This document shows, in pieces, positions 3,818 to 27,594 of a DNA stretch of 64,000 nt (the stretch's first letter is position 1; the number at the start of each line of letters is the position of its first letter). The notes beneath the pieces are model-generated. The model did not search any database, had not been told where the DNA came from, and worked only from the letters and a program-made list of their open reading frames with translations. Source of the stretch: Ferruginibacter sp. HRS2-29 (GTDB lineage Bacteria > Bacteroidota > Bacteroidia > Chitinophagales > Chitinophagaceae). Where the stretch lies: assembly GCF_024343615.1 (NCBI RefSeq), contig NZ_RJUB01000003.1, positions 62,001-126,000 of the forward strand, given 5' to 3'. The position numbers and the translations under genes were made by a program.

Positions 3818-3867
3818 GCTGGTTATTTTACAATCGATAAAATAAGATGATCGCCTCAATGATAGAC

Positions 3868-3916: not shown

Positions 3917-6202
3917 TTACAATAATTTAAAAGATGCTTCTTTTACATCGACACTGTTACCTCCGATGAATACTTTGAAGTCACCAGGTTCTGCAACGAA
4001 TTTGTATTCGCTGTTGTAGAACTTAAGATCTTCTGCAGAGATCGTAAAAGTTACTGCTTTACTTTCGCCTGCTTTCAGGAATATCTTCTGAAAACCTTTC
4101 AATTCTTTCACCGGGCGTGTAACGCTTCCTACAAGATCGCGGGTGTACAACTGCACTACTTCCGCACCATCCCTGTTGCCGGTATTTTTTAGTGTAACCG
4201 TAGCCGTTATGTTACCCGTTTTACCAAGTGTAGCGCTGCTCAATCTGATATCGCTGTAGCTGAAAGTTGTGTAGCTCAGGCCATATCCAAAAGGATATAA
4301 AGGAAGATTGGATACATCGAGGTAATTGGAACGGAATTTCTGAAACCAGAGGCTGTCAGTCAGCGGACGACCGGTGTTTTTGTGGTTGTAATAAAGCGGT
4401 ATCTGGCCTACATTCTGAGGAAATGTGGTCGTCAATTTACCCGAAGGGTTCACATCACCAAACAATACATCTGCAATCGCGTTACCAGCTTCAGAGCCAC
4501 CAAACCATACGTTGAGGATGGAAGGAACATTCGCTTTTTCCCAGTTCAATACCAACGGCCTTCCGGTGAATAATACCAGTACCACAGGTTTCCCGGTTTT
4601 TACCAATACCATCAAAAGATCTTTTTGTGCCTGTGGAATTTCGATGTTGGAGCGGCTGGAACTTTCCCCGCTCATTTCGGAAGATTCACCCAGCGCCGCT
4701 ATGATAACATCCGATTGATTGGCAATCGCCAATGCTTCATCCATCATCTGCTGTGCAGTACGGCCATCTCTTACCAGATCACGGCCAAACATGGTAGCCC
4801 TTTGTTCAAATAAAGAATCAGCATCGAGGTTCGAGCCTTTGGCATATAATATTTTTGCATTGCTGCCCAGCACATTCTGCAATCCTTCCCTCACAGTGAT
4901 GGCGGTTTTGAGGTCGGTTGCCACACTCCATGTTCCCGGCATATTTTCTTTTGTATCCGCCAGAGGCCCTATCAACGCTATAGTTCCGCCTTTTTTCAGC
5001 GGCAATAAATTGTTCTGATTTTTCATCAACACAAAACTTTCTGCGGCTGTTGTTCTGGCTGCTTTGATATGTGCAGGAGTGTAAATATCCGTTTTAGCCC
5101 TTTCTTCATTCAGGTATTTGTATGGATCCTTAAAAAGCCCGAGTTTGTATTTTGCCTCCAGTATCAGGCGACAGGCATCATCGATATCCTTCTGGGTTAC
5201 TTTTCCTTCCGCCAGCGATTTTTTCAATGTAGTAAGAAATCCTTCACCCACCATATCCATATCCACACCTGCCTTCAAAGCCAGTGCTGACACGGTCTGC
5301 AGGTTGCCCATACCATGATCGATCATTTCATTGATACCCGTGTAATCCGTTACCACAAAACCTTTGAAGCCCCATTGTTTACGCAAAACATCCGTAAGCA
5401 GCCACTTGTTACCAGTTGCAGGAATACCATCCACCTCGTTGAAGGAAGCCATCAGGCTACCGGCGCCCGCATCCACAGCGGCTTTGTAAGGAGGCAGATA
5501 ATTGTTGTACATGCTGATGCGGCTGATATCTGTTGTGTTATAATCACGGCCGGCTTCGGCGGCTCCATAAGCTGCATAATGTTTCACACAAGCCATGATG
5601 CTGGTATTGCTGCTGTAATCATTTTGCTGGTAACCTTTCACCATTGCCCTGGCGATCTGCGAACCGAGGTACGGATCCTCACCGCTACCTTCTGAAATAC
5701 GGCCCCAGCGTGGATCCCGGCTGATATCCACCATCGGGCTGAATGTCCAGCAGATGCCATCGGCGCTGGCTTCCACCGCAGCTATCCTTGCGCTGTTCTC
5801 AATCAGTTTCAAATCCCAGGTGCAGGACAAACCCAATGGAATCGGGAAAGTTGTCTGGTAACCGTGGATCACATCCATACCGAAGATCATCGGGATTTTG
5901 AGGCGGCTTTCTTCCACTGCTACTTTTTGCACGGCACGGATCTTTGCAGCAGTCTTAATGTTGAACAAACCTCCTACTGCCCCTTCCTTTATCTTTTTAC
6001 CTATATCGGAGTTAGATGCCTGCCCCGTTACGATATCTCCTGACCCAGGCAGATTGAGTTGACCGATCTTTTCATCGAGGGTCATTTTTTTCATCAATGC
6101 ATCGATGAAGGGTTTCATCTTTGGATCGGTAGTGGTCTGTGCTGTTGAATTGATGGCCGCAAACAATGCGATCAGCATCATCAACCTTTGCATACTTTTC
6201 AT
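3917..6202 (-). CDS. bglX: GH3 beta-glucosidase (BglX-like), PUL copy 2
   Basis: This 761-residue protein is a paralogue of the next GH3 gene. The start at 6202 (MKSMQRLMMLIALFAAINSTAQ) yields a clean signal peptide; an ATG six codons earlier is possible. It has GH3 N and C domains and an FnIII-like tail. The nucleophile Asp is in VVTDY near residue 283, KHYAAYGAAEAGRDYN is the binding motif, and the GESSEMSGESSSRSN region holds the acid/base Glu. Two consecutive GH3 genes of the same architecture suggest different oligosaccharide length or linkage preferences. A 282-base spacer without a gene separates it from the SGNH gene upstream in the same orientation. Confidence 0.9.
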   Translation of the reverse strand: MKSMQRLMMLIALFAAINSTAQTTTDPKMKPFIDALMKKMTLDEKIGQLNLPGSGDIVTGQASNSDIGKKIKEGAVGGLFNIKTAAKIRAVQKVAVEESRLKIPMIFGMDVIHGYQTTFPIPLGLSCTWDLKLIENSARIAAVEASADGICWTFSPMVDISRDPRWGRISEGSGEDPYLGSQIARAMVKGYQQNDYSSNTSIMACVKHYAAYGAAEAGRDYNTTDISRISMYNNYLPPYKAAVDAGAGSLMASFNEVDGIPATGNKWLLTDVLRKQWGFKGFVVTDYTGINEMIDHGMGNLQTVSALALKAGVDMDMVGEGFLTTLKKSLAEGKVTQKDIDDACRLILEAKYKLGLFKDPYKYLNEERAKTDIYTPAHIKAARTTAAESFVLMKNQNNLLPLKKGGTIALIGPLADTKENMPGTWSVATDLKTAITVREGLQNVLGSNAKILYAKGSNLDADSLFEQRATMFGRDLVRDGRTAQQMMDEALAIANQSDVIIAALGESSEMSGESSSRSNIEIPQAQKDLLMVLVKTGKPVVLVLFTGRPLVLNWEKANVPSILNVWFGGSEAGNAIADVLFGDVNPSGKLTTTFPQNVGQIPLYYNHKNTGRPLTDSLWFQKFRSNYLDVSNLPLYPFGYGLSYTTFSYSDIRLSSATLGKTGNITATVTLKNTGNRDGAEVVQLYTRDLVGSVTRPVKELKGFQKIFLKAGESKAVTFTISAEDLKFYNSEYKFVAEPGDFKVFIGGNSVDVKEASFKLL

Positions 6203-6484
6203 GTTGTGTCGTTTTATCATATCAAAAAATATCCAGGCAAGCTCACCTGATTTTCAGTTAATTTATTTTATCAAAAATAACAATACTTCCGCCACCGGCC
6301 GAGAGCCTTGAAAGGAGGCGGAAAATATTCGCTTCTATTTGAAGCAATGGCCTCAAGATACCAATGTTTTCAATACTATCGAGCAATTAAAGCATAATAA
6401 TTCATTCGTTCCTCTGTTGTTTTTATCTTATTAAAATAATTTAAAAAAACAGGCAAATATGAATACTATTAACTTTCATCTTAC

Positions 6485-7147
6485 TCATTTGACCAGGTAA
6501 GGCTCTATCGCTTTTTGCCAGATGGCATATCCTTTTGCATTCATGTGTAAACGATCTCCAATGAATATATCCGCCATGACTGTCCCATCCGCATTGAACA
6601 TTTTAGTGTAAACGTCTATGTAAGCCGCCTTTTTTTTCTTCTTCAAAAACTTCCGGATCGCTTTATTGGATGCTATCATTTTTGTCCATAAGTGCTCGCG
6701 GCTCGGACTTGGCTTGATGGAAACGAATGCGATAGGCACACCCGGTAAATTTTCGCGGATCATGTTGAACAAAGTCTTGAAACGACCGGTGACCATCTCC
6801 GCAGTAACTGTGTCGGAAGATGCAAAATCATTTTCACCACAATAGATCACCACTTGTTTTGGATGATACGGATAAATGATATCCGGTGCATAACGGATCA
6901 CATCGGGCAACGATGAGCCGCCGAAGCCACGATTGATGATAGGATACGCTGGAAAATATTGCTGCACATCCTTCCACTTGGTAAAAGAAGAGCTACCTAC
7001 AAACAATACCTGGCCCTTTGCAGGAAAAGAAATGGAATCGGCTTTTTTGAAAGCGGCTATATCGTTGGCGAAGGGTTGGGCTGTTGCCGCTGAGATCACC
7101 ACAAAAAATGCGATAGAAAAAAATCCGGTAATTTTTCTGAAGTTCAT
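6485..7147 (-). CDS. Secreted SGNH/GDSL-family hydrolase
   Basis: The 220-residue protein has a signal peptide (ending AATAQ). SGNH blocks are all visible: block I as VGSSSF (Ser near residue 51), block II Gly in NRGFGGSS, block III Asn in YCGEND near residue 101, and block V DRLHM near residue 200 with the catalytic Asp and His. The family hydrolyses esters, including acetyl and other acyl groups on polysaccharides. Lying within the PUL between GH43 and GH3 genes, it probably removes acyl substituents from the imported glycan. Which acyl group is unknown. A run of six lysines around residue 168 is unusual. Confidence 0.82.
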   Translation of the reverse strand: MNFRKITGFFSIAFFVVISAATAQPFANDIAAFKKADSISFPAKGQVLFVGSSSFTKWKDVQQYFPAYPIINRGFGGSSLPDVIRYAPDIIYPYHPKQVVIYCGENDFASSDTVTAEMVTGRFKTLFNMIRENLPGVPIAFVSIKPSPSREHLWTKMIASNKAIRKFLKKKKKAAYIDVYTKMFNADGTVMADIFIGDRLHMNAKGYAIWQKAIEPYLVK

Positions 7148-7254: not shown

Positions 7255-9021
7255 TTATTCCACCTTCATCACTTTGGTCCTTTCCGAAACGCCGTTTTCA
7301 TTAATGGCTTCGATAGAGAAATAATATGCCTTCTGGCTATCCATTGTTTTCAACCAATACTCATTTACATCGTGCACCATGATGCAGGTGTACAATTTAT
7401 CAGGAGCTGTGCCGTACCAGATATTCCATGCCCAGGCTTTTTCATCGGGGCTCCATTTTACCCAGGCACTGCGTTTGTCTTTTTCTGTACGGAGCACAAC
7501 CAGTTGTTTCACTGCGGATGGTTTTTCCCCGGTACCTTTTCCAAAAACCCGCAATCCGCTGATAGCAAATTTGCCGGTTGGCATATGTACATTTTCGAGC
7601 CTGATATAACGTGCCTGAACTGCCTTTGGCAATTCTATATAGTCGTGCGGCACGTCTGTTTTATTTTTACTTTTATCCATCAACATGTTCCACTTTTTTC
7701 CATCAAGTGAATAAAATAATTTATACTGATGATAGGTGGTCGTTTGTTTTCCAAGAAACTCTGCATCCTGATCGGCGTAATTTATCTGCACTGCATTTAC
7801 TGTTGATACAGCGCCCAGATCGGATTGTATCCATTCCCCCGCATTGCCGGTGGTAGCGCTCCAGTAGGTCTTGATACTTTCGTCTACCGCGTTATTGGCA
7901 TTATACGCATTCAGTGTGGAAGAAACCATCACTGGCTTTTTGTAATTGAGCAGCATCCAGCCGGTGAAACCTCCATTACCACCGGGTGCATTTTCTGCCG
8001 CAGTAGAAGCGGAAGGAATGTGATGCGGATAATCGCCGAAGGAAGTATTGCAGTACATCACATCATCCTTGTCAAACCCTGCCGGCCAGATACCGATCCT
8101 GCGCTCGAAATTATTTTTTACAGAAATGGATATGGTAGATACATGCCAGTAATTTTTCAGGTTATCCGTGAAGGTTGCTCCATGACCAGCGCCTCTTGCA
8201 AATCCGCCGGGTTTGAAACTCAACGGATCCGATTGTGGCGTGAACGGCCCCAATGGTGTTTCGCCAACAATCACCCCGTCCGCATAACCACTGAATTCGG
8301 TCCCCGGCGCACCATACTGGAAATAGTATTTGCCATTGTGTTTGATCACTTCCGAACCTTCGATGAACGGATCCAGGAAAGTATTGTCCATGTATTCGCC
8401 GAAACGCTGCCAGCCGTAACGCCAGTCTTCCAGCAGGTACATTTCTTTTCGTGTGCCGATGGGCTGCATCGTTTTCCTGTTCAGTTCCACTCCGTAAGTC
8501 GGATAACGGTTGCTGCTTCCGTTATACATATAAAAACGTCCGTCGTCATCCGTGAAGAAAGCTGGATCCCAGCCGCCGATGGCGAAGGAATCTACCAGTG
8601 GTTTCCAGACATTATTTTTAGGATCGGTGCTCATCCAGATGGTAAATTTATCGGTGTAGGTAGAACCGAACACCAGCATCGTATCGCCGATGATGCCTAC
8701 TGCCGGTGCACAGAGTTCATCGTATACACCGCCATTCCAGGGGCGCAGGAATTTTTTGGAATTGAAAGTCCAGTTGAGCATGTCATGGCTCCACCAGTAT
8801 CCCCATTGGTTGGTGCTGAACAAATAAAAATCTCCCTTGTAATTTACGATCACAGGATCCGCTGTGGCCCTGTGTTTTCCCCACTCACTGAAGTTTGGGA
8901 TCGGCGTGTAACCGTAGTCGATATTGATGGGATTGCAGTAGGTGGTTTGTTGCGCAGACGAATCTGTGAAGCTGAACAGGCAACACATGACTGCGAGAGA
9001 ATATCCGGTTAGTTTTTTCAT
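7255..9021 (-). CDS. GH43-family glycosidase with discoidin-like and FnIII domains
   Basis: The 588-residue protein has signal peptide MKKLTGYSLAVMCCLFSFTDSSAQ; the ATG at 9021 is preferred to a GTG three codons upstream. The N-terminal five-bladed propeller has the expected GH43 triad: base Asp in TADPV (about residue 52), pKa-modulating Asp in GGWDPAF (about 150) and acid Glu in IEGSEV (about 221). Residues about 365-500 look like an F5/8 type C (discoidin/CBM32-like) domain and about 505-588 like FnIII. GH43 members act on arabinosides, xylosides or galactosides, so in a glucan PUL it suggests a decorated substrate. The subfamily cannot be assigned by eye. Confidence 0.85.
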   Translation of the reverse strand: MKKLTGYSLAVMCCLFSFTDSSAQQTTYCNPINIDYGYTPIPNFSEWGKHRATADPVIVNYKGDFYLFSTNQWGYWWSHDMLNWTFNSKKFLRPWNGGVYDELCAPAVGIIGDTMLVFGSTYTDKFTIWMSTDPKNNVWKPLVDSFAIGGWDPAFFTDDDGRFYMYNGSSNRYPTYGVELNRKTMQPIGTRKEMYLLEDWRYGWQRFGEYMDNTFLDPFIEGSEVIKHNGKYYFQYGAPGTEFSGYADGVIVGETPLGPFTPQSDPLSFKPGGFARGAGHGATFTDNLKNYWHVSTISISVKNNFERRIGIWPAGFDKDDVMYCNTSFGDYPHHIPSASTAAENAPGGNGGFTGWMLLNYKKPVMVSSTLNAYNANNAVDESIKTYWSATTGNAGEWIQSDLGAVSTVNAVQINYADQDAEFLGKQTTTYHQYKLFYSLDGKKWNMLMDKSKNKTDVPHDYIELPKAVQARYIRLENVHMPTGKFAISGLRVFGKGTGEKPSAVKQLVVLRTEKDKRSAWVKWSPDEKAWAWNIWYGTAPDKLYTCIMVHDVNEYWLKTMDSQKAYYFSIEAINENGVSERTKVMKVE

Positions 9022-9064
9022 TACTATCACTTTTGTTTTTTAAGATCGAAGCCGGGGCTTCAGC

Positions 9065-10498
9065 CTACTTAATCCATTTACTTTTAAAACCAAGCTTTGT
9101 CAAACCATTCTGCACATCTTTATTTTGCATGAACAATTTCCATATCAATCCGCTCCGGTAATTTTCTATCATCACGATGATCGGCCCCTGATCGATGGCC
9201 AGGTGCGTTTTTGCATACCAGTTTTTTTCTTCGCTGAAACCATCGGCGAATCCGTAATCGCTCCAGATCTTACTGCCGAGGTTGTAATAAAAATGTTTCA
9301 GGGCCTGCATCGAATATTCGGGCGTAAAAGGAAATGAAGACAGGGCGGCGGTAGGTTGAATTACACCGAGGTCAACCTCGGGGCAATGCGCCACGTAGCC
9401 TTTATAACTGTCACCTGCTGTCAGGCCCCAGCAATTCTCTCCATAACCTTTAAATTTTTTCGGGTTCTCGATACAGTATGCCCGATTGATGAGTGTGTGG
9501 TTCTTCGTTTGCAAAGCATAATCGATCCTGTTATCATCGGTGAGCCCGGTGGGATCGATTCCCATAAATGTATATTGCTCAAAAAACAACGGGCCGCCTT
9601 TATCGAAGTTGCCTAACGGTAACGTGTAGCCGTAATATTCTTTGCCGTTTTTCCACGAGGGGCTGCCTACCCAGCAATTGTTGTATACCTCTCTTGATAT
9701 GGGGTGCCATTTGGAAGATGCCGACATGATATAAGTGATGAGCGCTTCATCATACCCGTATACAGGAAAATTCATCTGGAAATCATTTGTCGGGCTCCAA
9801 TGCCAGTACAGGTTTTTATTATCGTTGTTGGTATGCCAGTTCCAGTTGGCGGAATTCCACATCTGCTCTACCCTTTTTTGAAAATAACGTTCCTTCAGTG
9901 TGGTACCATTAAAATATTCTTTGGCGGTGAGCAATCCCATCATTAGATAGGAAGTTTCTACAATATCTGCTCCATCATCGATCCGGTCGAATGGAATCGT
10001 TTTGCCGGTAATGCCATTCATGAAATGGGGATAGATGCCATGATAACAATCTGCTTTTATGAGGAAGTCGACGATCTTTATCAGTCGGCCCAATGCCGTA
10101 TCCCTTCCTATCCAGCCGCGATTGACCGCTACTACGGTCGACATGATGCCAAATCCTGTTCCGCCGATAGCGCAGGCGTCTTTTCCAAATGTACCTTTAC
10201 TGAGGTTGGGTTCATCGTATGCTTCATTGATGTAATCCCAGTAATATTCAGCATGTACCGTATTGTCTCTTTCAAGCGCCAATCCGCTTACAGGATGCGC
10301 CCCATGCCAGAAGAACCTGAATGTTTGCCGCTGAACGATATCCAGCAAAATGCTGTCGCTCACGCCACGCATGATCCCTGTTGGTGCGATGCTATCCGGA
10401 CCGTTTCCATATTTACCTTTTGTGAGCGATACACTTTTCTGGGCATTCACATTTGTCAATGCAAGGAGCAATACAATCGATAAAAAGCTTTTCATCAT
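9065..10498 (-). CDS. GH144-like endo-/exo-beta-1,2-glucanase (glucoamylase-fold), paralogue A
   Basis: The 477-residue protein has a signal peptide cleaved after VNAQ; an ATG at 10495 is equally possible. Family hallmarks are QRQTFRFFWHGAHPVSGL, the acidic cluster DDGADIVETSYL near residue 171, LYWHWSP, and the C-terminal AIDQGPIIVMIENYRSGL. In the family-founding Chitinophaga enzyme the acidic residues of the DxGADxxE cluster are, to my memory, important for catalysis, and they are all kept here. Unlike its neighbours it has an extra 20-25 residues between the ERDN and GGTGFG motifs, which should line the substrate cavity. It follows paralogue B by 10 bases in one operon. Older annotation calls this fold glucoamylase (PF10091). 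Confidence 0.85.
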   Translation of the reverse strand: MMKSFLSIVLLLALTNVNAQKSVSLTKGKYGNGPDSIAPTGIMRGVSDSILLDIVQRQTFRFFWHGAHPVSGLALERDNTVHAEYYWDYINEAYDEPNLSKGTFGKDACAIGGTGFGIMSTVVAVNRGWIGRDTALGRLIKIVDFLIKADCYHGIYPHFMNGITGKTIPFDRIDDGADIVETSYLMMGLLTAKEYFNGTTLKERYFQKRVEQMWNSANWNWHTNNDNKNLYWHWSPTNDFQMNFPVYGYDEALITYIMSASSKWHPISREVYNNCWVGSPSWKNGKEYYGYTLPLGNFDKGGPLFFEQYTFMGIDPTGLTDDNRIDYALQTKNHTLINRAYCIENPKKFKGYGENCWGLTAGDSYKGYVAHCPEVDLGVIQPTAALSSFPFTPEYSMQALKHFYYNLGSKIWSDYGFADGFSEEKNWYAKTHLAIDQGPIIVMIENYRSGLIWKLFMQNKDVQNGLTKLGFKSKWIK

Positions 10499-10508
10499 CT
10501 GTAATTTT

Positions 10509-12671
10509 TTATTTCGTGATGCTTGTTTCTTTTTGCAATTTTTGTAACCCGATCATCACTTCCGGATTTGCCATGAACATTTTCCAGATCAATCCCGACC
10601 GGTAATTTTCTATCATCACCGTCATGGGAGCCTGGTTCAATCCCATGTATATTTCAGAGCACCAGTTGTTGGTGAGGTCGAATGCATCCCTGAAACCATA
10701 TTCACCCCAAAGAAATTTACCATGATTGTAATAATAATTTTTGAGTGCTTTCATCGATTCAACAGGAGTATATGGAAAAGATGAAATGGCGCCTGTTGGG
10801 GCGATCTTTCCATGATCCTGGGCGATGTTAGGCTCATCGGCAGAATAACTGAAAGGCCCGTCACTGGCAGTAAGCCCCCATGCACTATCACTGTAGCCAA
10901 GGTATTTTTTCGGGTTCTCCACACAATAAGTATAATTGATCTTCGCGATATTCTGGTTATTGACAAAATAATTATTCGTGTATTTATCCTTCAGGTAAGC
11001 GGGATCGTAGCCCATGTAAGAATAATGTGTAAAGAACAACGGGCCGCCGTTTGAAACCCCTACATCGAGTTTGATGCCAAAGTAAGTTTTGCCATTGCTG
11101 TACTTTGATCCATCAGTTGTTCCGCCCCATGCAGAACGATATTGCTGCCCCGTTGAATCCTGGTTGGCCCAGCCTGAATAATACATCGATGCCGGAACGC
11201 CATGTGTGGGTGAAGCAATGGCCAGCAGGTAAGTTACCATGGTTTCGTTCCAGCCGATGAGTTTGTGATTGATCACCCATTGTTTGTCCGGGGACCAATG
11301 CCAGTAAAGGAATTTGCTGTTCGGATATTGTTTGAACCAATCCCATTCCACACCAAGCCAGAGATCACTGATCTTATCGCGGATGAATTTTTCTTTTTCA
11401 TTATCCGCCGAAAAATATTGTTTGGCTGCCAGCAACCCTTCCATCAAAAAGGAAGTTTCCACGAGGTCGGCGCCATTATCTTTCCTTCCGAAAAACGGCT
11501 CTGCTTTTCCATCCGGGCCATTGATGAAGTGAGGAAAAGCGCCATGAAATTTTTCTGCCTTCGATAAAAAGTTCACCACTTTCACAAATCGTTCTACCGC
11601 TTCTTCGCGTGTGATGAATTTACGTTCAGTGGCCGCAATGATGGCCATCAACCCAAAACCTGCAGCACCGGAAGCTATCATACTTTGCCTGCCGGGAATA
11701 TTTTCTTTTGCCAGCCCGCTGAAGTTTTCAGCTCCTTCCCAGTAATAACGAAAGGATGCTTCCTGCACCATGTCTAATAATTCGCCATCTGTCATCGTTC
11801 TCGTAGCGGCAGCAACAATATCCGACATGGGGGATTCCTGGAAATCATTTCCCAGGTAACTGATCTTGTAAGAATATTTTTTACCTGTTTCACCAGTGTA
11901 ATCCGAATAACGTCCGATCGCTGCATCCTGTATCCCTACAGGGTTGTATGCCCGTCCCTCTTCAGACCGATAGACCTGTACATAACGAATAGCAGATGAT
12001 GTATCTTTTAGCCAGGTAATGTCTACATGTTTTGCATACCCTTTTGCAGACAATAACTGCGGCGCTTTTGCAACAGGTTGGAAAAATTCTTTTACTGTAA
12101 AACCGATATCATCGATATATATCGTATTACTCTTTCCATCTTTCGATTGCTGTTCAAAAACGATAGCAATCACCCTGTTCGGGTACGATAATTCACTTCC
12201 AAAAGTGCTGGTATGGATGAGTACACTTTCCCAGTCCTTTGTTTTTTTTACCCGGAAAGAAACCGGTTTGCTATATGTGCTATCTGTGTATTGGAAACGC
12301 ACCAGCGGCAGATCTTTATCATAAGTGCTGTCGCTTTCTACTTTTATATGAAAAGAGAGGAATGTAGGTTTACGGAAAAAATCCATGCCGCGTTTTTCCT
12401 GGTGAAAAACGGAAGCCCTCCAGGTACCTGTAGAACCATTGATGTATTGCAAGCGCAGAGAATTGCCGGGGGTAAAAAAAAATTCGCCACTTACCGGAAG
12501 TTTATTTTTTTGCTGCGCAATGAATGAATTTCCTTTGGAACTTGTGTTGCTGAAAAAATAATTTCCTTCCATCATACTATTGGTGAAGAAATCGTAGTTG
12601 TATAATTTTTCCTGCGCACCAGCGCCAAGGGAGGATGCAAGAGCCAAAATGGCGAATAATTTTTTCAGCAT
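10509..12671 (-). CDS. GH144-like glucanase with N-terminal beta-sandwich and FnIII domain, paralogue B
   Basis: The 720-residue protein starts at 12671 (MLKKLFAILALASSLGAGAQ); the frame opens 19 codons earlier but that stretch overlaps the upstream gene. Residues about 25-205 form a carbohydrate-binding-like beta-sandwich, about 210-300 an FnIII-like domain, and about 310-715 the (alpha/alpha)6 catalytic domain with DNGADLVETSFL near residue 398, YWHWSP and MIENYRSGLIWK. The catalytic part diverges most from the other three paralogues, for example SFRYYWEGAENFSGL where the others have FGHPVSGL. An N-terminally extended GH144 enzyme of Parabacteroides that releases sophorose is a plausible functional match. 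An exo mode is inferred, not shown. Confidence 0.83.
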   Translation of the reverse strand: MLKKLFAILALASSLGAGAQEKLYNYDFFTNSMMEGNYFFSNTSSKGNSFIAQQKNKLPVSGEFFFTPGNSLRLQYINGSTGTWRASVFHQEKRGMDFFRKPTFLSFHIKVESDSTYDKDLPLVRFQYTDSTYSKPVSFRVKKTKDWESVLIHTSTFGSELSYPNRVIAIVFEQQSKDGKSNTIYIDDIGFTVKEFFQPVAKAPQLLSAKGYAKHVDITWLKDTSSAIRYVQVYRSEEGRAYNPVGIQDAAIGRYSDYTGETGKKYSYKISYLGNDFQESPMSDIVAAATRTMTDGELLDMVQEASFRYYWEGAENFSGLAKENIPGRQSMIASGAAGFGLMAIIAATERKFITREEAVERFVKVVNFLSKAEKFHGAFPHFINGPDGKAEPFFGRKDNGADLVETSFLMEGLLAAKQYFSADNEKEKFIRDKISDLWLGVEWDWFKQYPNSKFLYWHWSPDKQWVINHKLIGWNETMVTYLLAIASPTHGVPASMYYSGWANQDSTGQQYRSAWGGTTDGSKYSNGKTYFGIKLDVGVSNGGPLFFTHYSYMGYDPAYLKDKYTNNYFVNNQNIAKINYTYCVENPKKYLGYSDSAWGLTASDGPFSYSADEPNIAQDHGKIAPTGAISSFPYTPVESMKALKNYYYNHGKFLWGEYGFRDAFDLTNNWCSEIYMGLNQAPMTVMIENYRSGLIWKMFMANPEVMIGLQKLQKETSITK

Positions 12672-12688
12672 GCAATCGGTTTTAAAGA

Positions 12689-14059
12689 TTAATCGGATAT
12701 AGCGGGACTTTTTTGCGGAACCAGCCATGGGCTTCTGAAATCAAACTTTTTCAATCCTGCCTGTATCTCCGGACAACTCATGAAAAGTTTCCACAAAAGC
12801 CCGGTGCGGTAATTCTCCATCATCACTATGATGGGGCCCTGGTCGATGGCGAGATGCGATTCAGCATACCAGTTCTTTGTTTCGTTGAACGCATCCACGA
12901 ATCCGTATTCGCTCCATATCTTATTGCCGAGGTCATCATAAAAATGGCGCAGTGCTTTCATTGATTTATCGGGGGTGTATGGAAATGCTGAAAGCGCTGC
13001 TGTCGGCGTTATCGTACCTGCATCGTTGGTAGGTGAATAGGCATTGTATCCATCGTAAGTATCTCCTGCGGTTAGGCCCCAGCAATTGGGACCATAGCCT
13101 TTGAATTGTTTTGGATTGTCTACGCAATACGAATAATTGATGAGTGTGTGATTCTGATTCTGTTCCCAATAATCGGCATACCTGTCTTTCAATCCACGGG
13201 GATCAAGCCCCAGGAAAGAATACTGCGAAAAAAATAACGGGCCGCCATAATCGAAACCTAACGGTAACTTATACCCGTAAAAAGTTTTCCCGTTGGTGAA
13301 AAAATTACTTTCTGCCCAGCCGCGATGGTATACTGCCGACGACACAGGATAACGGTCACCCGCAGACGCTAATACATACATGATGAGGCATTCGTTGAAA
13401 CCACGTACCGGGAAATTCATCGCCCAGCCATTATTGGGGCTCCAATGCCAGTACAACACTTCCTGGCCACCTTGCGTAAACCAGTTCCATTCTATACCCT
13501 CCCACAGCCAATTGATTCGGCTGCGCAATTCCCTTTCTACCCTATTGTCTTTATTATTAAAATATTGCCGTGCGCAAAGCAATCCCTGGAAGAGGTAGGA
13601 TGACTCAACAAGGTCTGCCCCGTCATCTTTTCTGCTGAATGGGATCGTTTTGCCGGTGCTGCCATTCATCCAATGCGGGAACACGCCGTGATAGCTGTCT
13701 GCCTTGAGTAAAAAATTAACCATCTTCAGAAGAAATTTGGCCGCGGTATCACGGCTGATCCAGTTCCTTTCTGCTGCCACGATCACCGACATTACACCGA
13801 AACCCGTACCACCGCTGGTCACCACATCATTTCCGTAACCAAAATTCTCATTGCTGCGTTCCCTCGAAAGACCGCTTACAGGATGTGCAAAATCCCAGAA
13901 ATAACGAAAGGTCTGTTTTTGTACCAGCTCTATCAAAGCGGTATCCGACAAGTTCTTCGGCCGTTTCAGCGGATCGAATACCGGTGTTTTTTTCTGCGCT
14001 TCGCAGGAAAAGCTGGTAGCAGTAATAAGGAGTACAAGAATGAAATTGAAATGTTTCAT
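12689..14059 (-). CDS. GH144-like endo-beta-1,2-glucanase, paralogue C
   Basis: The 456-residue protein is the minimal version: a signal peptide with a possible lipobox (TSFSC) and a single catalytic domain. It contains QKQTFRYFWDFAHPVSGL, the acidic cluster KDDGADLVESSYL near residue 145, LYWHWSPNNGW, NHTLINYSYC and AIDQGPIIVMMENYRTGL. Length and domain content are closest to the founding Chitinophaga endo-beta-1,2-glucanase. The gene lies 17 bases upstream of paralogue B and 82 bases downstream of paralogue D, with a heptamer repeat and a palindrome in that spacer. Confidence 0.85.
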   Translation of the reverse strand: MKHFNFILVLLITATSFSCEAQKKTPVFDPLKRPKNLSDTALIELVQKQTFRYFWDFAHPVSGLSRERSNENFGYGNDVVTSGGTGFGVMSVIVAAERNWISRDTAAKFLLKMVNFLLKADSYHGVFPHWMNGSTGKTIPFSRKDDGADLVESSYLFQGLLCARQYFNNKDNRVERELRSRINWLWEGIEWNWFTQGGQEVLYWHWSPNNGWAMNFPVRGFNECLIMYVLASAGDRYPVSSAVYHRGWAESNFFTNGKTFYGYKLPLGFDYGGPLFFSQYSFLGLDPRGLKDRYADYWEQNQNHTLINYSYCVDNPKQFKGYGPNCWGLTAGDTYDGYNAYSPTNDAGTITPTAALSAFPYTPDKSMKALRHFYDDLGNKIWSEYGFVDAFNETKNWYAESHLAIDQGPIIVMMENYRTGLLWKLFMSCPEIQAGLKKFDFRSPWLVPQKSPAISD

Positions 14060-14072
14060 ACTATCAGGTTAA

Positions 14073-14107
14073 AAGTTGAAAGTTCAAGGTTCAAGGTTCA
14101 AGGTCCA
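14073..14107. repeat. Heptamer tandem repeat (AGGTTCA-type, five units)
   Basis: Five consecutive 7-bp units read AAGTTGA, AAGTTCA, AGGTTCA, AGGTTCA and AGGTCCA. It lies between two glucanase genes and abuts the palindrome at 14107. Confidence 0.85.
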
Positions 14108-14143
14108 AACCTCCGGGGTTTTAAAAACCCCGGAGGTTTTTTT
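14107..14143. repeat. Palindrome AAACCTCCGGGGTTTT, copy 2
   Basis: Sixteen-base arms are perfectly complementary around a one-base loop. A T-run follows on the plus strand only, so it would terminate antisense rather than operon transcription. On the minus strand it would form an intercistronic hairpin right after the paralogue D stop codon. The core word is shared with the element at 7226-7253. Confidence 0.7.
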
Positions 14144-15827
14144 ATAAATACGGTGCTGTAAAACCAAGCGCTGTCATGCCTGCTTTTACCTCAGGTGCGC
14201 TGGTAAACAGGTTCCACAATAATTGAGTGCGGTAATTTTCTATCATCACTATGATCGGCCCCTGGTCGATCGCCAGATATGAATCTGCAAACCATTGATC
14301 ATGCAGGGAGAAAGCGTCGACAAATCCGTATTCCTTGAAAAGTTTATCGCCAAGTACATAATAATAAAACTTCAATGCTTTCATTGATTCGGTGGGGGTA
14401 TAAGGAAAAGATGAAAGTGCCGCTGTTGGCGCTATTACCCCTACATCATTGGTGGGAGAACTCGCGGTATATCCACCGGAAATATCACTTGCAGTAAGTC
14501 CCCATACAGAATCACTATAGCCGTAATAATTTTTCGGATTGGCTTTGCAATAATTGTAATTGATAAGTGTATGATTTTTCGTTTGCGTAGCATAGTTAGC
14601 ATATACATCCGTCAATCCGTTTGGATTAATACCAAGAAAAGAATAATGTTCAAAAAATAACGGGCCGCCGAGATTGGGACCTAACGGCAACGTGTAGCCG
14701 TAATAAGTATTTCCGTTTACAAATCCTGCACCTCCATTATTCGCCCAGCCATTGGTGTACACAGCTTTCGGAATGCTATGTGTAGCAGAAGATGCCCCCA
14801 ATACATATGTGATGAGCGATTCGTTCCACCCCTGTATCTTCATATTGATGCTGAACCCGCCGGTATTGCTGTAATGCCAGTACAAAACATTCTGGTTGTT
14901 CTGCCTGAACCAATCCCATTCTACCCTGTTCACGATCGTATTGATATCGGCCCGTAACGTGGCTTCATCACCTGCATTGGAAAAATATTGACGGGCGCAG
15001 ATAAGTCCCTGGATGAGATAAGATGTTTCAACAAGATCGGCGCCGTTGTCTGCAGCGCTGAAAGGAATGATCGCGCCGGTTGTACCGTTGAGCCAATGCG
15101 GGTAAGCGCCTTTTACGGTTTGCGCCGTATTTTTCAAAAACCCTACTATCTTTTGCATACGCGCCAACCCTTCGGCACGTGTGATAAAATTCCTGCTCAC
15201 GCCTGTGATCAGTGCCATGATACCGAAACCGGAACCTCCGCTGGTAACGGTTTCGCCGGAGGTATTACGCTCCCTTGCCAATCCACTTACCGGATGTCCG
15301 AAGTCGTAGAAATATTTAAACGTTTGTTTTTGTACGAGGTCCAGCAATGCATTGTCGGTGATGTCAGGAAATTTTCTTGTAGAATCAATCCCGGTGGTAA
15401 GATTGATGGTGACCGCAGAAAGGAGATTTCCACCTGTTGCAGATTTAAGACCTGTTGATGCGAGTATGGAATATTTTGCTAAATAAGGTAATGGTGCTGT
15501 TGGCTGAAGCACTACAGTACTATCGCCGTTTTCGTAGCTGTATGTTGTCAACACCGTGGCATTGCTGTTGTTCCTGAAACTGATAGCGCCATTGGCTACA
15601 CTGGTCCTGCTCAATGCCGCATTGAATGAAAGCTTTATGACAGGACTAGCATTTAACCCGATATAATTCAAACCGGAACTTACTCCATTTACTCTTACAG
15701 AATTAAACGAAAAGCTTGCCGGCGGGGGATCCACAGGCGGTGTAGGGCCACCTCCATCACTGCTTTTTTTGCAGGAATTAAAACATACCAGCAAAGCCAG
15801 GCAAACCAACAACCCTTTTGTTTTCAT
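14142..15827 (-). CDS. GH144-like endo-beta-1,2-glucanase lipoprotein with Ig-like domain, paralogue D
   Basis: The 561-residue protein starts at 15827 (MKTKGLLVCLALLVCFNSC); an ATG four codons earlier is possible. Cys in LVCFNSC followed by KKSSDGG is a lipobox plus the charged stretch typical of surface-exposed Bacteroidota lipoproteins. Residues about 40-150 resemble a bacterial Ig-like (Big_5) domain. The catalytic domain then follows with QKQTFKYFYDFGHPVSGL, DNGADLVETSYL near residue 261, LYWHYSNTGG and AIDQGPIIVMIENYRTQL. As the only clear lipoprotein with a spacer domain among the four, it is the best candidate for the surface endo-enzyme that makes fragments for SusCD import. Confidence 0.85.
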   Translation of the reverse strand: MKTKGLLVCLALLVCFNSCKKSSDGGGPTPPVDPPPASFSFNSVRVNGVSSGLNYIGLNASPVIKLSFNAALSRTSVANGAISFRNNSNATVLTTYSYENGDSTVVLQPTAPLPYLAKYSILASTGLKSATGGNLLSAVTINLTTGIDSTRKFPDITDNALLDLVQKQTFKYFYDFGHPVSGLARERNTSGETVTSGGSGFGIMALITGVSRNFITRAEGLARMQKIVGFLKNTAQTVKGAYPHWLNGTTGAIIPFSAADNGADLVETSYLIQGLICARQYFSNAGDEATLRADINTIVNRVEWDWFRQNNQNVLYWHYSNTGGFSINMKIQGWNESLITYVLGASSATHSIPKAVYTNGWANNGGAGFVNGNTYYGYTLPLGPNLGGPLFFEHYSFLGINPNGLTDVYANYATQTKNHTLINYNYCKANPKNYYGYSDSVWGLTASDISGGYTASSPTNDVGVIAPTAALSSFPYTPTESMKALKFYYYVLGDKLFKEYGFVDAFSLHDQWFADSYLAIDQGPIIVMIENYRTQLLWNLFTSAPEVKAGMTALGFTAPYL

Positions 15828-15874
15828 GATAATATTCATCGGTTATATTTTTTATTCAAAACAGTATTCAGCAA

Positions 15875-17299
15875 TTACCAGGTAAAAGTGGCTACAGCCC
15901 CGGCAGGAATATTTGCCGTGGCCTGTTTTTTATTTGATTCAATATTAAATATTGCGTCCGTTTTATTTTCATTCAGCACCAGCAGGACTGTTTTTCCCGC
16001 AGGTGTTTTAAATGCTACGTTTGGCAGATTTGCAGGCAACGAACTTTCGATACGCACCGAGCCGGCCGGAACAAATTTTGAAGCATGGGCAATGATATAA
16101 TAACTCACATTCCTTTTGATATCGTTGCCGGGGCCTATCGTAAGTGCGCCCTTGCATTCGGTGCAGCCACCCGGCGTATGCGGTTTGAACTCCGGATCGT
16201 TGGCCAGGTTCCATTCAAGCGCATTCCTGCTCCAGTTGCGCATGGTGCAAATGATCACATTTTTGATGGCCCATTGGAGGTCGCCATCGAAAGTGCCGTT
16301 TGACCCGGTCCATTGCTCGGTGAAGTAAAGATGTTTGTCAGGATGCGCTTTGTGCACAGCCGACATCGCTTCCACTTCGCCTACGTACAAATGGAACGCC
16401 GAGCCATCGATATATTTTCTTGCTTCTTTATCATTGAGTATGGTGATGGGATATTCGGGGTGATCGCAGTTGTGATCAAACAAAATGATCTTCGTTTTGA
16501 TACCTGCTTTTTTAAAAGCTGGGCCAAGATGATTTTTGATGAAGTCTGCCTGTTGCAAGGCTGTCATCCAAAGACTGGGATTGTTCTTCGGATTTTCCGG
16601 TTCATTCTGTATTGTGATGGCATCCACCGGAATTCCTTTTGCTTTCATCTGCTGAATGTATTTCACAAAATAGTTAGCGTACACGCTGTAATATTTTGGC
16701 AGCAGTTCTCCGCCTTTTGAGTTCTCATTATCTTTCATCCACTCCGGGGGGCTCCAGGGTGAACCTAATATTTTTATTTTCGGATTGATGGCCAGTATCT
16801 TTTTCAAAACGGGGATAAGATTGGCTTCATCGGGTGCCAGGCTGAAATTTTTCAGCTGCACATCTGTTTGCCCTTTAGGCATATCATCATAACTGAACAC
16901 TACTGAATCAAGATCGGAAGCGCCGATGCTGATGCGTATATAACTCACACCGATGGAATTTTTATCACGTCTGAATAATTCGTTGAGTATTTTTTTCTTC
17001 TTTGAAGGTTCGAGGTTGTTGATCAGCCAGGCACTGCCGCCGGTGAGGGCGTAGCCGAAGCCGTCGATCTGTTGAAATGTTTTTTGTGGCTGGATGGTAA
17101 TAACGGGATGATCACTTTTCTGAACAGAGAATGGGATAGCTGGTTGCTGCTGCAGCAATGCCGACTGATCCGGTTTGGTAAGCCAATATTCAACTCCGGT
17201 ATTTTTCACCTGCTGGCTGTACACATTTTCTCTTGCCAGTAATGCCAGGCAAACAAGCAGGAAATGAGCTGCGACCGCAACTGTTTTTCTTTGAATCAT
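15875..17299 (-). CDS. GH30-family beta-glycosidase
   Basis: The 474-residue protein has a signal peptide ending VYSQ. It carries the GH30 (beta/alpha)8 signatures: QIDGFGYALTGGSAW near residue 75, acid/base Glu in TIQNEPENP near residue 231, and nucleophile Glu in LYFTEQWTG near residue 328, then the C-terminal beta-domain. GH30 enzymes of Bacteroidota PULs act as beta-1,6-glucanases, glucosylceramidase-type beta-glucosidases or beta-xylosidases. Next to beta-glucanases, a beta-1,6- or other beta-glucoside specificity is likely. It is the first enzyme gene after the susCD terminator. Confidence 0.88.
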   Translation of the reverse strand: MIQRKTVAVAAHFLLVCLALLARENVYSQQVKNTGVEYWLTKPDQSALLQQQPAIPFSVQKSDHPVITIQPQKTFQQIDGFGYALTGGSAWLINNLEPSKKKKILNELFRRDKNSIGVSYIRISIGASDLDSVVFSYDDMPKGQTDVQLKNFSLAPDEANLIPVLKKILAINPKIKILGSPWSPPEWMKDNENSKGGELLPKYYSVYANYFVKYIQQMKAKGIPVDAITIQNEPENPKNNPSLWMTALQQADFIKNHLGPAFKKAGIKTKIILFDHNCDHPEYPITILNDKEARKYIDGSAFHLYVGEVEAMSAVHKAHPDKHLYFTEQWTGSNGTFDGDLQWAIKNVIICTMRNWSRNALEWNLANDPEFKPHTPGGCTECKGALTIGPGNDIKRNVSYYIIAHASKFVPAGSVRIESSLPANLPNVAFKTPAGKTVLLVLNENKTDAIFNIESNKKQATANIPAGAVATFTW

Positions 17300-17476: not shown

Positions 17477-18307
17477 TTATTTCCCTTTACCCTGAAGGAT
17501 CACCATAGCGTTCACTTCCTGATCGGTCAATACTGATTTGTAAAGACGAACTTCATCCAGTTGGCCTGTAAGGAAACTTGCCCATGGTTCAGGACCATGA
17601 TTGGTCAAAGATGGAGTAGTCATAAAATGGGTACATCCAAACACCAGATTACCTGAGTTGGTAAAATTCAGATTACCGTAACCGGCAAAAGTTTGTGTAT
17701 GGATCAGGTTACCATCTTTGTAAACTTTAGCGGTAGATGTAGCACCATCGTAAGAGATCGTAATGTTTGTCCATGCATCAAACAAGCCATTGATACCATC
17801 CTTTGAAATGGTCCTGTCTCCGGTTCCATTATAAATGAAAGCCCTTAATTTACCAGCGGTGGCTGTACTTCCATTTTCATAGAATACATCAATATCACCC
17901 CAGAAATTTCCATTGTGAGATAAAGATACTGTACCAACGATCCCGACTGAAGGCGGTGGATTTTTAACCCAATAGCTCAAAGTCATGCTCGTAAGTGCTT
18001 TGATAGCTGCGCCTGGAGTAAATTGAACATATTTATTGATACCACCCTGCATTGCCTGTCCTTTGAAACCAGGTGTGAAGCTGGTACCTGTATTAACACC
18101 TGAAGTTCCCGATACGCTATCCACAAGGCTTCCATCAAATGACCAGTACCCTACGAGGTTAGCAGGTTGTATTTGAGATACGCTTGAGTAACCACTAATG
18201 GTAAACGGTGGCGCGTATGTCTTCGGATCGAATTTGTCGTAGCACGAAGCCAGCGCAAGGCCGAGCGTCAGGCTACCCAAAATCATTTTGAAAGATATTT
18301 TTTTCAT
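17477..18307 (-). CDS. LamG-domain surface lipoprotein at the SusE position
   Basis: The 276-residue protein has a lipobox (LALASC, Cys near residue 22). From about residue 50 on it is one concanavalin-like jelly roll of the LamG/Laminin_G_3 type: VGYWSFDGSLVDSVSG, LTLSYWVK-like strand, WTNITISYDG and GQLDEVRLYKSVLTDQEV. Catalytic Glu motifs of GH16 are absent, so binding rather than hydrolysis is expected. Being third after susC and susD, it occupies the place of SusE/F-type surface glycan-binding proteins. The gene ends at a strong terminator. Confidence 0.82.
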   Translation of the reverse strand: MKKISFKMILGSLTLGLALASCYDKFDPKTYAPPFTISGYSSVSQIQPANLVGYWSFDGSLVDSVSGTSGVNTGTSFTPGFKGQAMQGGINKYVQFTPGAAIKALTSMTLSYWVKNPPPSVGIVGTVSLSHNGNFWGDIDVFYENGSTATAGKLRAFIYNGTGDRTISKDGINGLFDAWTNITISYDGATSTAKVYKDGNLIHTQTFAGYGNLNFTNSGNLVFGCTHFMTTPSLTNHGPEPWASFLTGQLDEVRLYKSVLTDQEVNAMVILQGKGK

Positions 18308-18330: not shown

Positions 18331-19815
18331 TTAATAATTCGGGTTTTGCGTCAATAAGCCTGCGCTCAGATCGATCTCGTTCTGCGGGATCGGCATGAGT
18401 TCGCTCTTACCTGCCACGAAACCTTTGCTACCGAATACTGCGGGACCACGGCCCTGGCGGATCACGTCGAAAAGACGATCGAATTCCATTGCCATTTCAG
18501 ACCTCCTTTCGCGATAGATAGCGGCACGCAGCGTGGCCTGATCGGTAGTAGTTACCGGCGGCAATACTGTCAATGGGTTTGAACCCCTTGCACGTGCCCT
18601 TACCGCGTTCAATGAAGTAAGCGCCTGTGCTGTATTTGCACCGCCCAATTCATTGGCAGCTTCTGCATTCATCAGCAGAATTTCTGCATACCTCATTACC
18701 CTGATATTCTGTTCAGCACCTTCGTTACATGCACCCGGGTATTGACCAAACGGAACATATGATTTCTGGTTGTACATCGGGTTGTCGCCAGTTGCCGGGA
18801 TCACATCACCTTCAGGGGTAGTTTCTCCGCGGAAGATGATGGTAGCATCCCTGCGTGGATCGCCTGGCTCGTAAGAAGCAGCGAGGTCAGCAGTAGGAAC
18901 GTTGAAACCCCAGCCGCCGCCAACTGATCCCCTTACACCCTGTACCTGTGAGTACTGGGAATTGGATGCGTCGCAATTACCTGCGATGTATTTTGCCTGG
19001 ATCTCAAAGATAGATTCCACGCTGTTTTCGTTCGCCACCCTGAAGAGCGCTTCGTAATCAGGATACAGCTGATAACCCATTCCCATTACCTGGTTGGTAT
19101 AGGTCAGTACATCTGCCCATTTTTTCTGATACAAAGCAACTTTTGCATGCAGGCCAAGAGCGGCACCTTTGGTGGCACGGCCTACATCGGCTGCAGGGTA
19201 TGACTGTGGCAATACTGCTGCGGCATCGGTCAGGTCTTTTTCAATTGCTGCCCATACATCCGCTTTAGGCGTACGTGGAAGGTTATATTCAGAGGCATCT
19301 TTAGGTACATTCAACCTCAATGGCACATCGCCGAAGGCACGCACCAGCCTGAAGTAAGAATATGCCCTTACAAATTTCGCTTCCGCGAAATAACGTGCTT
19401 TCAATGTTTCGTCCATGGTGATAGCAGGAACGTTGTCCAGTATCTGGTTGGCGAAATTGATATTCTGGTATTGCCCTGTCCAGAAATCAGCCAGCTGGCC
19501 ATCTGTAGGGCTGATACCGAAATTGTCATAAGAATTGAAGAAAGTTGCATCCGTCGGGCTGCTTCCTTTTTCAGCATCATCGGAACCCATGCTTTCGATG
19601 GCGATAGGTGCAAATGATACGTTCTTCCATTCCCTGAGGTTGGCGTACATCGCGTTCACCGCTTTGGCAGCATCTTCCGGAGTTTTCCAGAACTCAACGC
19701 TTGGCTGTGTAGCCTGCGGAGGCACATCAAGAAAAGTTTTCTTACATGCCCCAAGCAACAGCATCGATGCAAGTACCGAAGCTGAAGCGACTCTTTTAAT
19801 ATTATTATTTTTCAT
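18331..19815 (-). CDS. susD: SusD/RagB-family surface glycan-binding lipoprotein
   Basis: The 494-residue protein has a lipobox LLLGACKKTFLDVPP near residue 23. It has the SusD N-terminal pattern of TPR helices (FWKTPEDAAKAVNAMY), the RAYSYFRLVRAFGDVPL motif near residue 150, and the C-terminal NAVRARA, RRSEMAMEFDRLFDVIRQG and LMPIPQNEIDLS motifs. It caps the SusC channel and delivers oligosaccharides. The gene is 18 bases downstream of susC, the usual tight pairing. Confidence 0.95.
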   Translation of the reverse strand: MKNNNIKRVASASVLASMLLLGACKKTFLDVPPQATQPSVEFWKTPEDAAKAVNAMYANLREWKNVSFAPIAIESMGSDDAEKGSSPTDATFFNSYDNFGISPTDGQLADFWTGQYQNINFANQILDNVPAITMDETLKARYFAEAKFVRAYSYFRLVRAFGDVPLRLNVPKDASEYNLPRTPKADVWAAIEKDLTDAAAVLPQSYPAADVGRATKGAALGLHAKVALYQKKWADVLTYTNQVMGMGYQLYPDYEALFRVANENSVESIFEIQAKYIAGNCDASNSQYSQVQGVRGSVGGGWGFNVPTADLAASYEPGDPRRDATIIFRGETTPEGDVIPATGDNPMYNQKSYVPFGQYPGACNEGAEQNIRVMRYAEILLMNAEAANELGGANTAQALTSLNAVRARARGSNPLTVLPPVTTTDQATLRAAIYRERRSEMAMEFDRLFDVIRQGRGPAVFGSKGFVAGKSELMPIPQNEIDLSAGLLTQNPNY

Positions 19816-22800: not shown

Positions 22801-23148
22801 AACCAGGTCATCTTTCATCATTTTGTAAGACAAACCGGAGTTTTTAAGCAAGGTACTCAACACTTCCGGAAGATCCGCTTCCCTGAAATTCGCATCAATT
22901 TTCAATTCAGAAGGGATAAGGCTGTTGTTGTACACAAAGCGGTATTCGCTTTTACTTTCCAGCATGCTGATCGCTTTGGTGAGGTCAACACTTTTTAATT
23001 TGAGGGTTATCTTACTCTGGCTCTTTGCCTGTACCGATAACTGCATGAAGAACAGAAGCAGTACTGTAGATACCAGCTTCATGCTATTCATCACCTTTCT
23101 CCTGAATTTCTCACTTCTGAAGAAAGCAATTTGTTTGGCAATAATCAT
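19834..23148 (-). CDS. susC: SusC/RagA-family TonB-dependent receptor with STN signalling domain
   Basis: The 1104-residue outer-membrane importer is energised by TonB. Order: long signal region; STN domain about residues 45-115 (LKSVDLTKAISMLESKSEYRF); carboxypeptidase-regulatory domain about 130-205 (VTGTVTDENGRPLAGASV); plug about 215-325 with GYGSQRKIDVTGAV and SPLYVVDGV; then the 22-strand barrel. The STN domain marks it as a transducer that signals through the FecR anti-sigma encoded just upstream. A start 19 codons later (MNSMKLVSTVLLLFF) is possible. The gene heads the susC-susD-LamG unit. Confidence 0.95.
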   Translation of the reverse strand: MIIAKQIAFFRSEKFRRKVMNSMKLVSTVLLLFFMQLSVQAKSQSKITLKLKSVDLTKAISMLESKSEYRFVYNNSLIPSELKIDANFREADLPEVLSTLLKNSGLSYKMMKDDLVVLYKPTGNEVVADVRVTGTVTDENGRPLAGASVNVKNGGGVSTDGNGNYSLNVADNAILVFSYVGYEPKEVAVGGRTDVSVQLFPSIKTGEQVIVVGYGSQRKIDVTGAVTNIKGEELAKQASINPIGALQGKVAGVQITNSGAPGASPEIRIRGVGTIYGTASPLYVVDGVWYNDISFLNNNDIETLSVLKDASSESIYGVRAANGVVLITTKKGRAGKAVVNYNGYVGFQTVTNQVKMANATEYATIINELYAQNGAQPLFANTNFGKGTDWYHQIMRDALVTSHQVSVSGGTDKSDYNLSLSYLNQDGNVETNNYKRYTARFVNNFQIIPNLKIGYNITGAFSKSNDIPGGIFHQLYAAGPVVPVYYADGTYGDPSDYALGDGNNFNPQVTIDYFNQKSQNYRFTGSVFGEFKFAKHFTLRSSFGGEFGDGDVRGYTPVYTATLKQRNLISQLSINKNQTRNWILENTVTYDNKFGDHTFKVLVGQSAQRNKYYTVTGTAQGVPYSSEGDLYLALGNNATRNVVDGGSLNTSTSYFGRLNYAYKNKYLLTASMRADASSQFFGSDLWGYFPSVGAGWVISKEKFMETQKIFSTLKLRGSYGKIGNSVVPINPSVLTVNQGAYLTAIFGGAAYTGASVNSIVPPFIKWETGVGTDIGLEAGFLNDALTVEIDWYNKKTEDAIFGIPVLTSIGTGSASIIGNQATFQNQGLEFAASWRSTINSNLSYSIAGNFSANENKVLKVTTGANPIYAGGAASTGGGLATRTVLGQPIGQFYGYQVAGIFQTQAEVDASAQKINTKPGDFKYVDQNNDGVIDGRDKVALGNPNPKYTYGLSTNWAYKQFDLTVDLQGVADVDVYNANLGLRYGNENFSKEFYDNRWHGAGTSNTYPSASIGGGNNYLPNSFYVESGSYFRIRNLQLGYTIASKMTDRWGIKKIRAYANAQNILTVFKYNGFSPEVGGTPTNAGIDANVYPLFATYNLGVNVTF

Positions 23149-24493: not shown

Positions 24494-24574
24494 GATTAGA
24501 GATTAGGGGTTAGGAGAGGTTTAGAGGTCGTTCTAACAGCGAATAATTCTAAACTCTAATCCCTGATCCCTAAA
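24494..24574. repeat. Paired heptamer repeats (GATTAGG / CCCTAAA types)
   Basis: Three 7-bp units at 24494-24514 (GATTAGA, GATTAGG, GGTTAGG) and four at 24547-24574 (TTCTAAA, CTCTAAT, CCCTGAT, CCCTAAA) are roughly complementary and can fold together. The second block overlaps the sigma-factor stop codon. The same words recur at 25701-25758. Confidence 0.75.
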
Positions 24575-25700: not shown

Positions 25701-25758
25701 GATTAGGGTTTAGGGTTTAGAAAGATCTTCGGTTTGAACAACCTTCTAATCCCTAAAC
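25701..25758. repeat. Paired heptamer repeats forming a hairpin between convergent genes
   Basis: Units GATTAGG, GTTTAGG and GTTTAGA (25701-25721) face TTCTAAT and CCCTAAA (25744-25757). Arms 25708-25722 and 25744-25758 pair over 15 bp with one mismatch. It sits between the receiver gene and cheB, a possible bidirectional terminator. Confidence 0.75.
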
Positions 25759-27510: not shown

Positions 27511-27594
27511 ATATTTTTATTACACGAATTTGACGAATTACACGAATCAAAGCGCAAGCCTGAAATTTTCACCCCGCTAAAAAAAACCGATAGT

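Follow-up and report, generated by a model that had tools for sequence, protein, structure and literature searches.

What does a bacterium gain from four neighbouring genes for one family of glucanase, and which polysaccharide do they serve? The question is raised by the genes P4, P3, P2 and P1 of Ferruginibacter sp. HRS2-29, which we analysed within a window of 64,000 nucleotides of contig NZ_RJUB01000003.1 (Table 1; coordinates are window positions throughout). The original prediction took these genes to be paralogues of glycoside hydrolase family 144 (GH144) in a dedicated beta-1,2-glucan polysaccharide utilisation locus (PUL). Here we report that, as far as sequence comparison can tell, they are old, separately inherited enzyme types with different jobs and not recent copies, and we consider it probable that the locus is a PUL for beta-1,2-glucan in which these types divide the work.

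Results

The four genes do share a catalytic domain. Each encodes a single PF10091 (Glycoamylase) domain that scores 217-268 bits, far enough above the cut-off of 27 for a chance match to be of no concern, and each has the predicted acidic cluster DxGADxVE (DDGADIVE, DNGADLVE, DDGADLVE and DNGADLVE) together with ENYR close to the C-terminus. The catalytic domains are 46-63% identical to those of 4gl3 and CpSGL, a GH144 endo-beta-1,2-glucanase (5gzh/5gzk; 46-58% for CpSGL). In an alignment with five solved chains, D135, D139, E142, E211, F268 and Y330 (CpSGL numbering here and below) are conserved in P1-P4; among 180 rows assigned to types by percent identity, all are invariant except D135, which is Asn in 8 of 43 P4 rows. 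According to the accessible text of PMC12102758, the equivalent of E211 is the general acid and that of E142 the likeliest base, E211, F268 and Y330 define the clan, and a D400 mutant retained activity.

Seven solved chains were found by phmmer at E<=0.01: the GH144 chains 5gzh, 5gzk, 5z06 and 8xul, and the uncharacterised 4gl3, 4qt9 and 3eu8. An AlphaFold2 model of P1 (predicted local distance difference test score, pLDDT, 87.5) had as its nearest folds 4gl3 (Z 57.0, 408 residues, 1.5 A) and CpSGL (Z 55.4). Z ranged from 57 to 46 for the phmmer-listed chains, compared with 39 for GH189, 34 and 33 for GH194 and GH192, and 27.5 for GH162; GH193 was absent from this list for P1, the only GH144-type window protein folded. 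P1-P4 are thus closer to GH144 than to GH162, GH189, GH192 or GH194, the fold evidence being that of P1. With PF10091 scores, residues, the P1 fold and the tree described next all in agreement, and nothing placing any of the four outside the family, GH144 is a sound label for them, as originally proposed.

The four catalytic domains are only 44-58% identical to one another. By comparison, the 80 P1 relatives that we kept, from Mucilaginibacter, Terrimonas, Ferruginibacter, Lacibacter, Puia and other genera, are ∼69-81% identical to P1. A tree of 182 domains, built by a quick method with SH-aLRT (Shimodaira-Hasegawa-like approximate likelihood ratio test) support only and including five solved chains but no other family and no XcSGL, resolved P1 as one clade (79 rows, support 100), P4 as another (43 rows, support 99), and P2 with BDI_3064 as a third (9 rows, support 100). 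Rows from the P3 position were not monophyletic. They comprised a CpSGL clade (22 rows, support 99, with CpSGL, 3eu8 and 4qt9) and P3-type rows, most of which grouped with the P3 of the window, while five lay nearer P1. P1-P4 all fall outside the CpSGL clade, none of the five solved chains lies among the P1, P3-type or P4 rows, and we found no characterised member of these three types.

Adjoining genes of one fold family might have arisen as recent tandem copies that boost a single activity. We give this explanation practically no credence and reject it, because the four differ from one another more than P1 differs from its relatives in other genera, and because P1, P2 and P4 fall in separate, strongly supported clades.

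P2 is the one gene whose activity can be predicted. It matches BDI_3064 (5z06), a GH144 exo enzyme that releases sophorose, from end to end with the N-terminal domains included (Table 1), and is 65% identical to it in the catalytic domain. Both proteins carry a 17-residue insertion, and in the alignment of P1-P4 with the five solved chains they alone have Asn at D400. Although about a third of positions differ, we predict that P2 liberates sophorose at non-reducing chain ends. A full-length match, N-terminal domains and a shared clade with BDI_3064 are combined in P2 only. The earlier suggestion of different chain-end activities is supported for P2, as a BDI_3064-type exo enzyme, and unsupported for P1, P3 and P4.

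Neighbourhoods were compared at 80 loci, the best 80 of 330 relatives by similarity to P1, which is therefore present in all by construction. Counts are of best hits without masking of overlapping open reading frames (ORFs); some contigs stop inside the locus, L107 repeats L081 (L and G numbers denote loci and genomes of relatives), and 12 further loci stand outside the counts. Other core genes were found at 55 loci, the remaining 25 having P1 with none of them in reach, in some cases owing to contig ends. Among the 55, P4 occurs at 46, GH43 at 43, GH3a at 40, a P3-type gene at 30, the GDSL hydrolase at 23, CpSGL-type and GH30 genes at 19 each, GH31 at 16 and P2 at 7. The slot next to P4, occupied by P3 in the window, holds a P3-type gene at 25 of the 46 loci with P4, a CpSGL-type gene at 18, neither at 3 and both at none (Fisher p 5e-10 for the exclusion, relatedness being ignored by the test). 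All three same-genus loci that were opened (L106, L109 and L107=L081) have the CpSGL type there. Because an orthologue of a proven endo-beta-1,2-glucanase takes the same slot, we regard this exchange as the best evidence that the locus serves beta-1,2-glucan.

Four GH144 genes are found at six of the 80 loci (L014, L034, L051, L055, L066 and L068), uninterrupted by another gene at L014, L034 and L066. L034, from Terrimonas pollutisoli H1YJ31, has all four types of the window; five of the six have the order P4-slot-P1-P2, and L055 has that of the window, P4-slot-P2-P1. Across the family, PF10091 matches occur in 101 of 147 genomes, our own included, with one to three matches in 86 of the 101 (hand count), and at least four are left in about 11 of the 147 once matches to cyclic-glucan synthases are subtracted by hand. 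Richly equipped though it is, the locus is not unique and belongs to a known kind, and similar gene sets are common among relatives. GH144-containing PULs are described as abundant in Bacteroidetes in the available part of PMC6499787, and the window resembles these in joining GH144 to SusC/SusD; it has four GH144 types plus GH30, GH43, GDSL and GH3 genes, the composition lists of PMC6499787 lying outside this comparison.

P1 relatives with 73-80% identity also occur where the other genes of the locus are missing, most of them in Mucilaginibacter (L007, L009-L013, L015, L020, L023, L036 and L050), and P1 may therefore have a role of its own.

Among the accessory enzymes, GH3a matches JMB19063 (3u48) and 5xxl, which we take to be BT_3567, as well as Lin1840 at 583 bits (first two scores in Table 1). 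Both Lin1840 and BT_3567 are associated with beta-1,2-glucan in the accessible text of PMC12369401. The best NCBIfam match of the GH30 protein is the BT3312-type endo-beta-1,6-glucanase model, whose cut-off it does not reach; it appears related to that family and is not filed as a member. GH43 is 68-79% identical in 34 of 35 aligned relatives and 50% in one, with D58, D155 and E224, presumably the kind of triad used by GH43, invariant in 36 rows. The protein looks active, and its conservation suggests that it is important to the locus. Its predicted structure (pLDDT 79.7) gave only a broad GH43 fold match, the best being BT_3662 at 19% identity with Foldseek and a chain at 20% with VIA (Z 26.5), and with nearest chains ∼20% identical no substrate could be assigned from the prediction and these two comparisons.

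Signal types were scored with a crude pattern. The P4 of the window has a lipoprotein-like start, as do 27 of the 42 relatives scored, and ordinary signals predominate for P1 (53 of 76), P2 (4 of 7) and GH3a (32 of 40). The P3 of the window is lipoprotein-like; 19 of 29 P3 relatives are not. The lipoprotein-like start and Ig-like domain of P4 fit a surface enzyme.

Discussion

The original reading of the locus as a dedicated beta-1,2-glucan PUL survives in part. A beta-1,2-glucan target is favoured by the likeness of P2 to BDI_3064, by GH3a and by the slot shared with CpSGL. "Dedicated" is too strong, since the GH30 relative of the BT3312 family, the active-looking GH43 and the GDSL hydrolase suggest a branched or decorated polymer.

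The order in which the enzymes act and where they do so, like the substrate itself, we infer as follows. The relay of sigma factor, FecR and SusC with its STN domain would sense the glucan, and P4, as a surface lipoprotein, would cut it internally, perhaps together with P3. Fragments taken up by SusC/SusD would be trimmed by P1 and P3, while P2 would remove sophorose from non-reducing ends and the GH3 enzymes would complete the breakdown to glucose. Side groups, or linkages of another type, that obstruct the backbone would be removed by GH30, GH43 and the GDSL hydrolase.

A number of observations weigh against beta-1,2-glucan as the target. The best match of P1, P3 and P4 is 4gl3, a Bacteroides uniformis chain listed only as "putative glucoamylase", followed by CpSGL, and all four types have Asp at Y325, where the CpSGL clade has Tyr. 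GH43 is present at 43 of the 55 loci, and to our knowledge no GH43 substrate is a pure glucan. P1 is the sole GH144 gene in reach at 28 of the 80 loci. A gene 100% identical to CpSGL (L105) has none of the gene set within about 9-10 kb, except for a cytochrome-like gene, so that CpSGL itself is encoded outside such a locus. In three further same-genus genomes, G193, G281 and G381, matches to CpSGL are weaker, at E 4e-142 to 7e-155. Finally, a B. xylanisolvens PUL combines GH144 with a beta-1,2-galactosidase, according to the available portion of PMC11739564.

Some of these points would suit a locus aimed at a polysaccharide of mixed or other makeup, beta-1,2-glucosyl links being a minor part of it, with P1, P3 and P4 having evolved toward new linkages or sugars while keeping the GH144 fold. 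The frequency and conservation of GH43 with its invariant residues, the GH30 gene at 19 of 55 loci, and type-specific residues, such as the Asp at Y325 in all four types and the Phe at W200 and Gln at S345 of P1, all speak for it. We judge it unlikely, if still worth serious consideration, since the catalytic and clan-defining residues are retained, CpSGL orthologues take the P3 slot and P2 is of the BDI_3064 type. As to the source of a beta-1,2-glucan, gammaproteobacterial periplasmic glucans or the organism itself fit as well as the Rhizobium- or Agrobacterium-like neighbours first proposed. That the main task of the locus is to recycle cyclic beta-1,2-glucan made by the organism is nevertheless very improbable: the cyclic-glucan synthase kind has a patchy distribution, with 25 of the 147 genomes of the family containing it, uptake by SusC/SusD suits an external glucan, and no association of the synthase with GH144 was seen across the 147 genomes, GH144-type matches occurring in 19 of the 25 with the synthase and 76 of the 122 without (hand count; Fisher p 0.25, relatedness ignored).

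A more specific and quite tentative proposal, which we think rather unlikely as it stands, is that the locus dismantles the decorated periplasmic glucans of Proteobacteria and not plain cyclic glucan. As described in the accessible parts of PMC10514313 and PMC11842490, periplasmic glucans, for instance those of E. coli and Pseudomonas, consist of a beta-1,2-linked backbone that bears beta-1,6 branches and is decorated with succinate, phosphoglycerol and phosphoethanolamine. The gene set matches this makeup: on such group 1 glucans, the GH144 enzymes would cleave the main chain around the branches, GH30 would split the beta-1,6 links, and the GDSL hydrolase would remove acyl groups. Phosphodiesterase-like genes are present at some of the 55 relative loci (PDE at 5, EEP at 4). 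Some relatives add a GH31 gene, cyclic glucans of the Xanthomonas/Ralstonia type having alpha-1,6 links. The added phosphodiesterase-like or GH31 genes look as if each local version were matched to a different donor. Loci with P4 had PDE or EEP in 6 of 18 with GH30 and 2 of 28 without (unmasked; Fisher p 0.04, relatedness ignored), and in 5 of 18 and 2 of 25 in a masked count (p 0.11); as one of 120 pairs tried, this association is not significant, and the same applies to that of GH31 with the CpSGL type in the slot (p 0.02). A literature search found nothing that joins periplasmic glucan, polysaccharide utilization loci and Bacteroidetes, subscription papers being largely outside its reach, so that absence from print is not shown.

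Were the decorated-glucan proposal true, the locus could allow bacteria that carry it to consume the glucans made by pathogens and symbionts. Beside the predictable P2, the conserved GH144 types P1, P3 and P4 merit assays and are well worth pursuing in the search for new enzymes, and P3-type and CpSGL-type genes that replace each other in one slot offer a natural comparison of specificity.

Other features of the locus

All genes of the locus lie on the minus strand, in the order sigma factor, FecR, SusC, SusD, LamG, GH30, P4, P3, P2, P1, GH43, GDSL, two GH3 and alpha/beta hydrolase (Table 1). The sigma/FecR/SusC/SusD/LamG set is upstream of the four GH144 genes, as the original prediction had it; GH30, between LamG and P4, and the five genes after P1 were missing from that account. 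As in a SusCD-type PUL, susC and susD adjoin and the carbohydrate-active enzyme genes are contiguous on the same strand.

Table 1. Genes of the putative beta-1,2-glucan locus in the 64,000-nucleotide window.
Feature	Position	Strand	Supporting match
Extracytoplasmic function (ECF) sigma factor	24570..25148	-	Sigma70_r2 + Sigma70_r4_2
FecR anti-sigma	23274..24410	-	PF04773, PF16344
SusC with N-terminal STN domain	19834..23148	-	Plug 61 bits, STN 33 bits
SusD	18331..19815	-	PF07980 109 bits
LamG-like protein, possible surface glycan-binding protein	17477..18307	-	PF13385 52.5 bits
GH30, relative of BT3312 endo-beta-1,6-glucanase family, below cut-off	15875..17299	-	NCBIfam NF053856 399 bits (cut-off 700); PDB 5ngk 276 bits
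P4, GH144-type, 565 aa, lipoprotein-like signal and Big_5 Ig-like domain	14142..15839	-	PF10091 231 bits, Big_5 31 bits
P3, GH144-type, 456 aa	12689..14059	-	PF10091 268 bits; 4gl3 617 bits, CpSGL 561 bits
P2, BDI_3064-type GH144, 739 aa	10509..12728	-	5z06 841 bits over residues 40-733
P1, GH144-type (highly conserved type), 477 aa, extra insert near residues 79-105	9065..10498	-	PF10091 251 bits
GH43 with F5/8 type C domain	7255..9030	-	Pfam
GDSL hydrolase, possible deacylase	6485..7147	-	PF13472 52 bits
GH3a, GH3 beta-glucosidase	3917..6220	-	3u48 1235 bits, 5xxl 1134 bits; NCBIfam BglX 966 bits
GH3b, second GH3 beta-glucosidase	1592..3859	-	NCBIfam BglX 824 bits; 3u48 720 bits
Alpha/beta hydrolase, possible esterase	810..1583	-	Abhydrolase_2 and Esterase

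P4-P3-P2-P1 are adjacent and tightly packed, with gaps around and between them of 10-82 bases and an overlap of 40 bases between P3 and P2 that a start of P2 at Met20 (12671) may remove. The P4 ORF begins at 15839; 15827, where the region was first taken to end, is its second ATG. A 15-bp GC-rich palindrome lies at 14107-14139 in the P4/P3 gap; after it the minus strand has short repeats and no T run. The gap folds at -28.7 kcal/mol, the lowest value among 21 P4-to-slot gaps of relatives being -17.6, and the hairpin could set the mRNA level of P4 apart from that of P3-P2-P1.

In many relatives, P4 is preceded by an FG-GAP/ASPIC-UnbV protein of ∼1100 residues (L006, L008, L016, L021, L028, L031 and others; present at 32 of 55 loci) and by a cytochrome-like protein, neither of which lies between SusD and P4 in the window. 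The region after P1 contains, in relatives (L021, L034, L047, L049, L055, L056, L059, L068-L072 and L075), portions of a series of genes for Gfo/Idh/MocA oxidoreductases, GMC oxidoreductase, PhyH, DoxX, SDR, ROK, SIS and MetE-like proteins, a series that looks like an oxidative sugar pathway. Upstream of the sigma factor gene of the window, on the same strand at 25746-31250, are CheB, CheR and a CHASE3/GAF hybrid histidine kinase with three receiver stretches.

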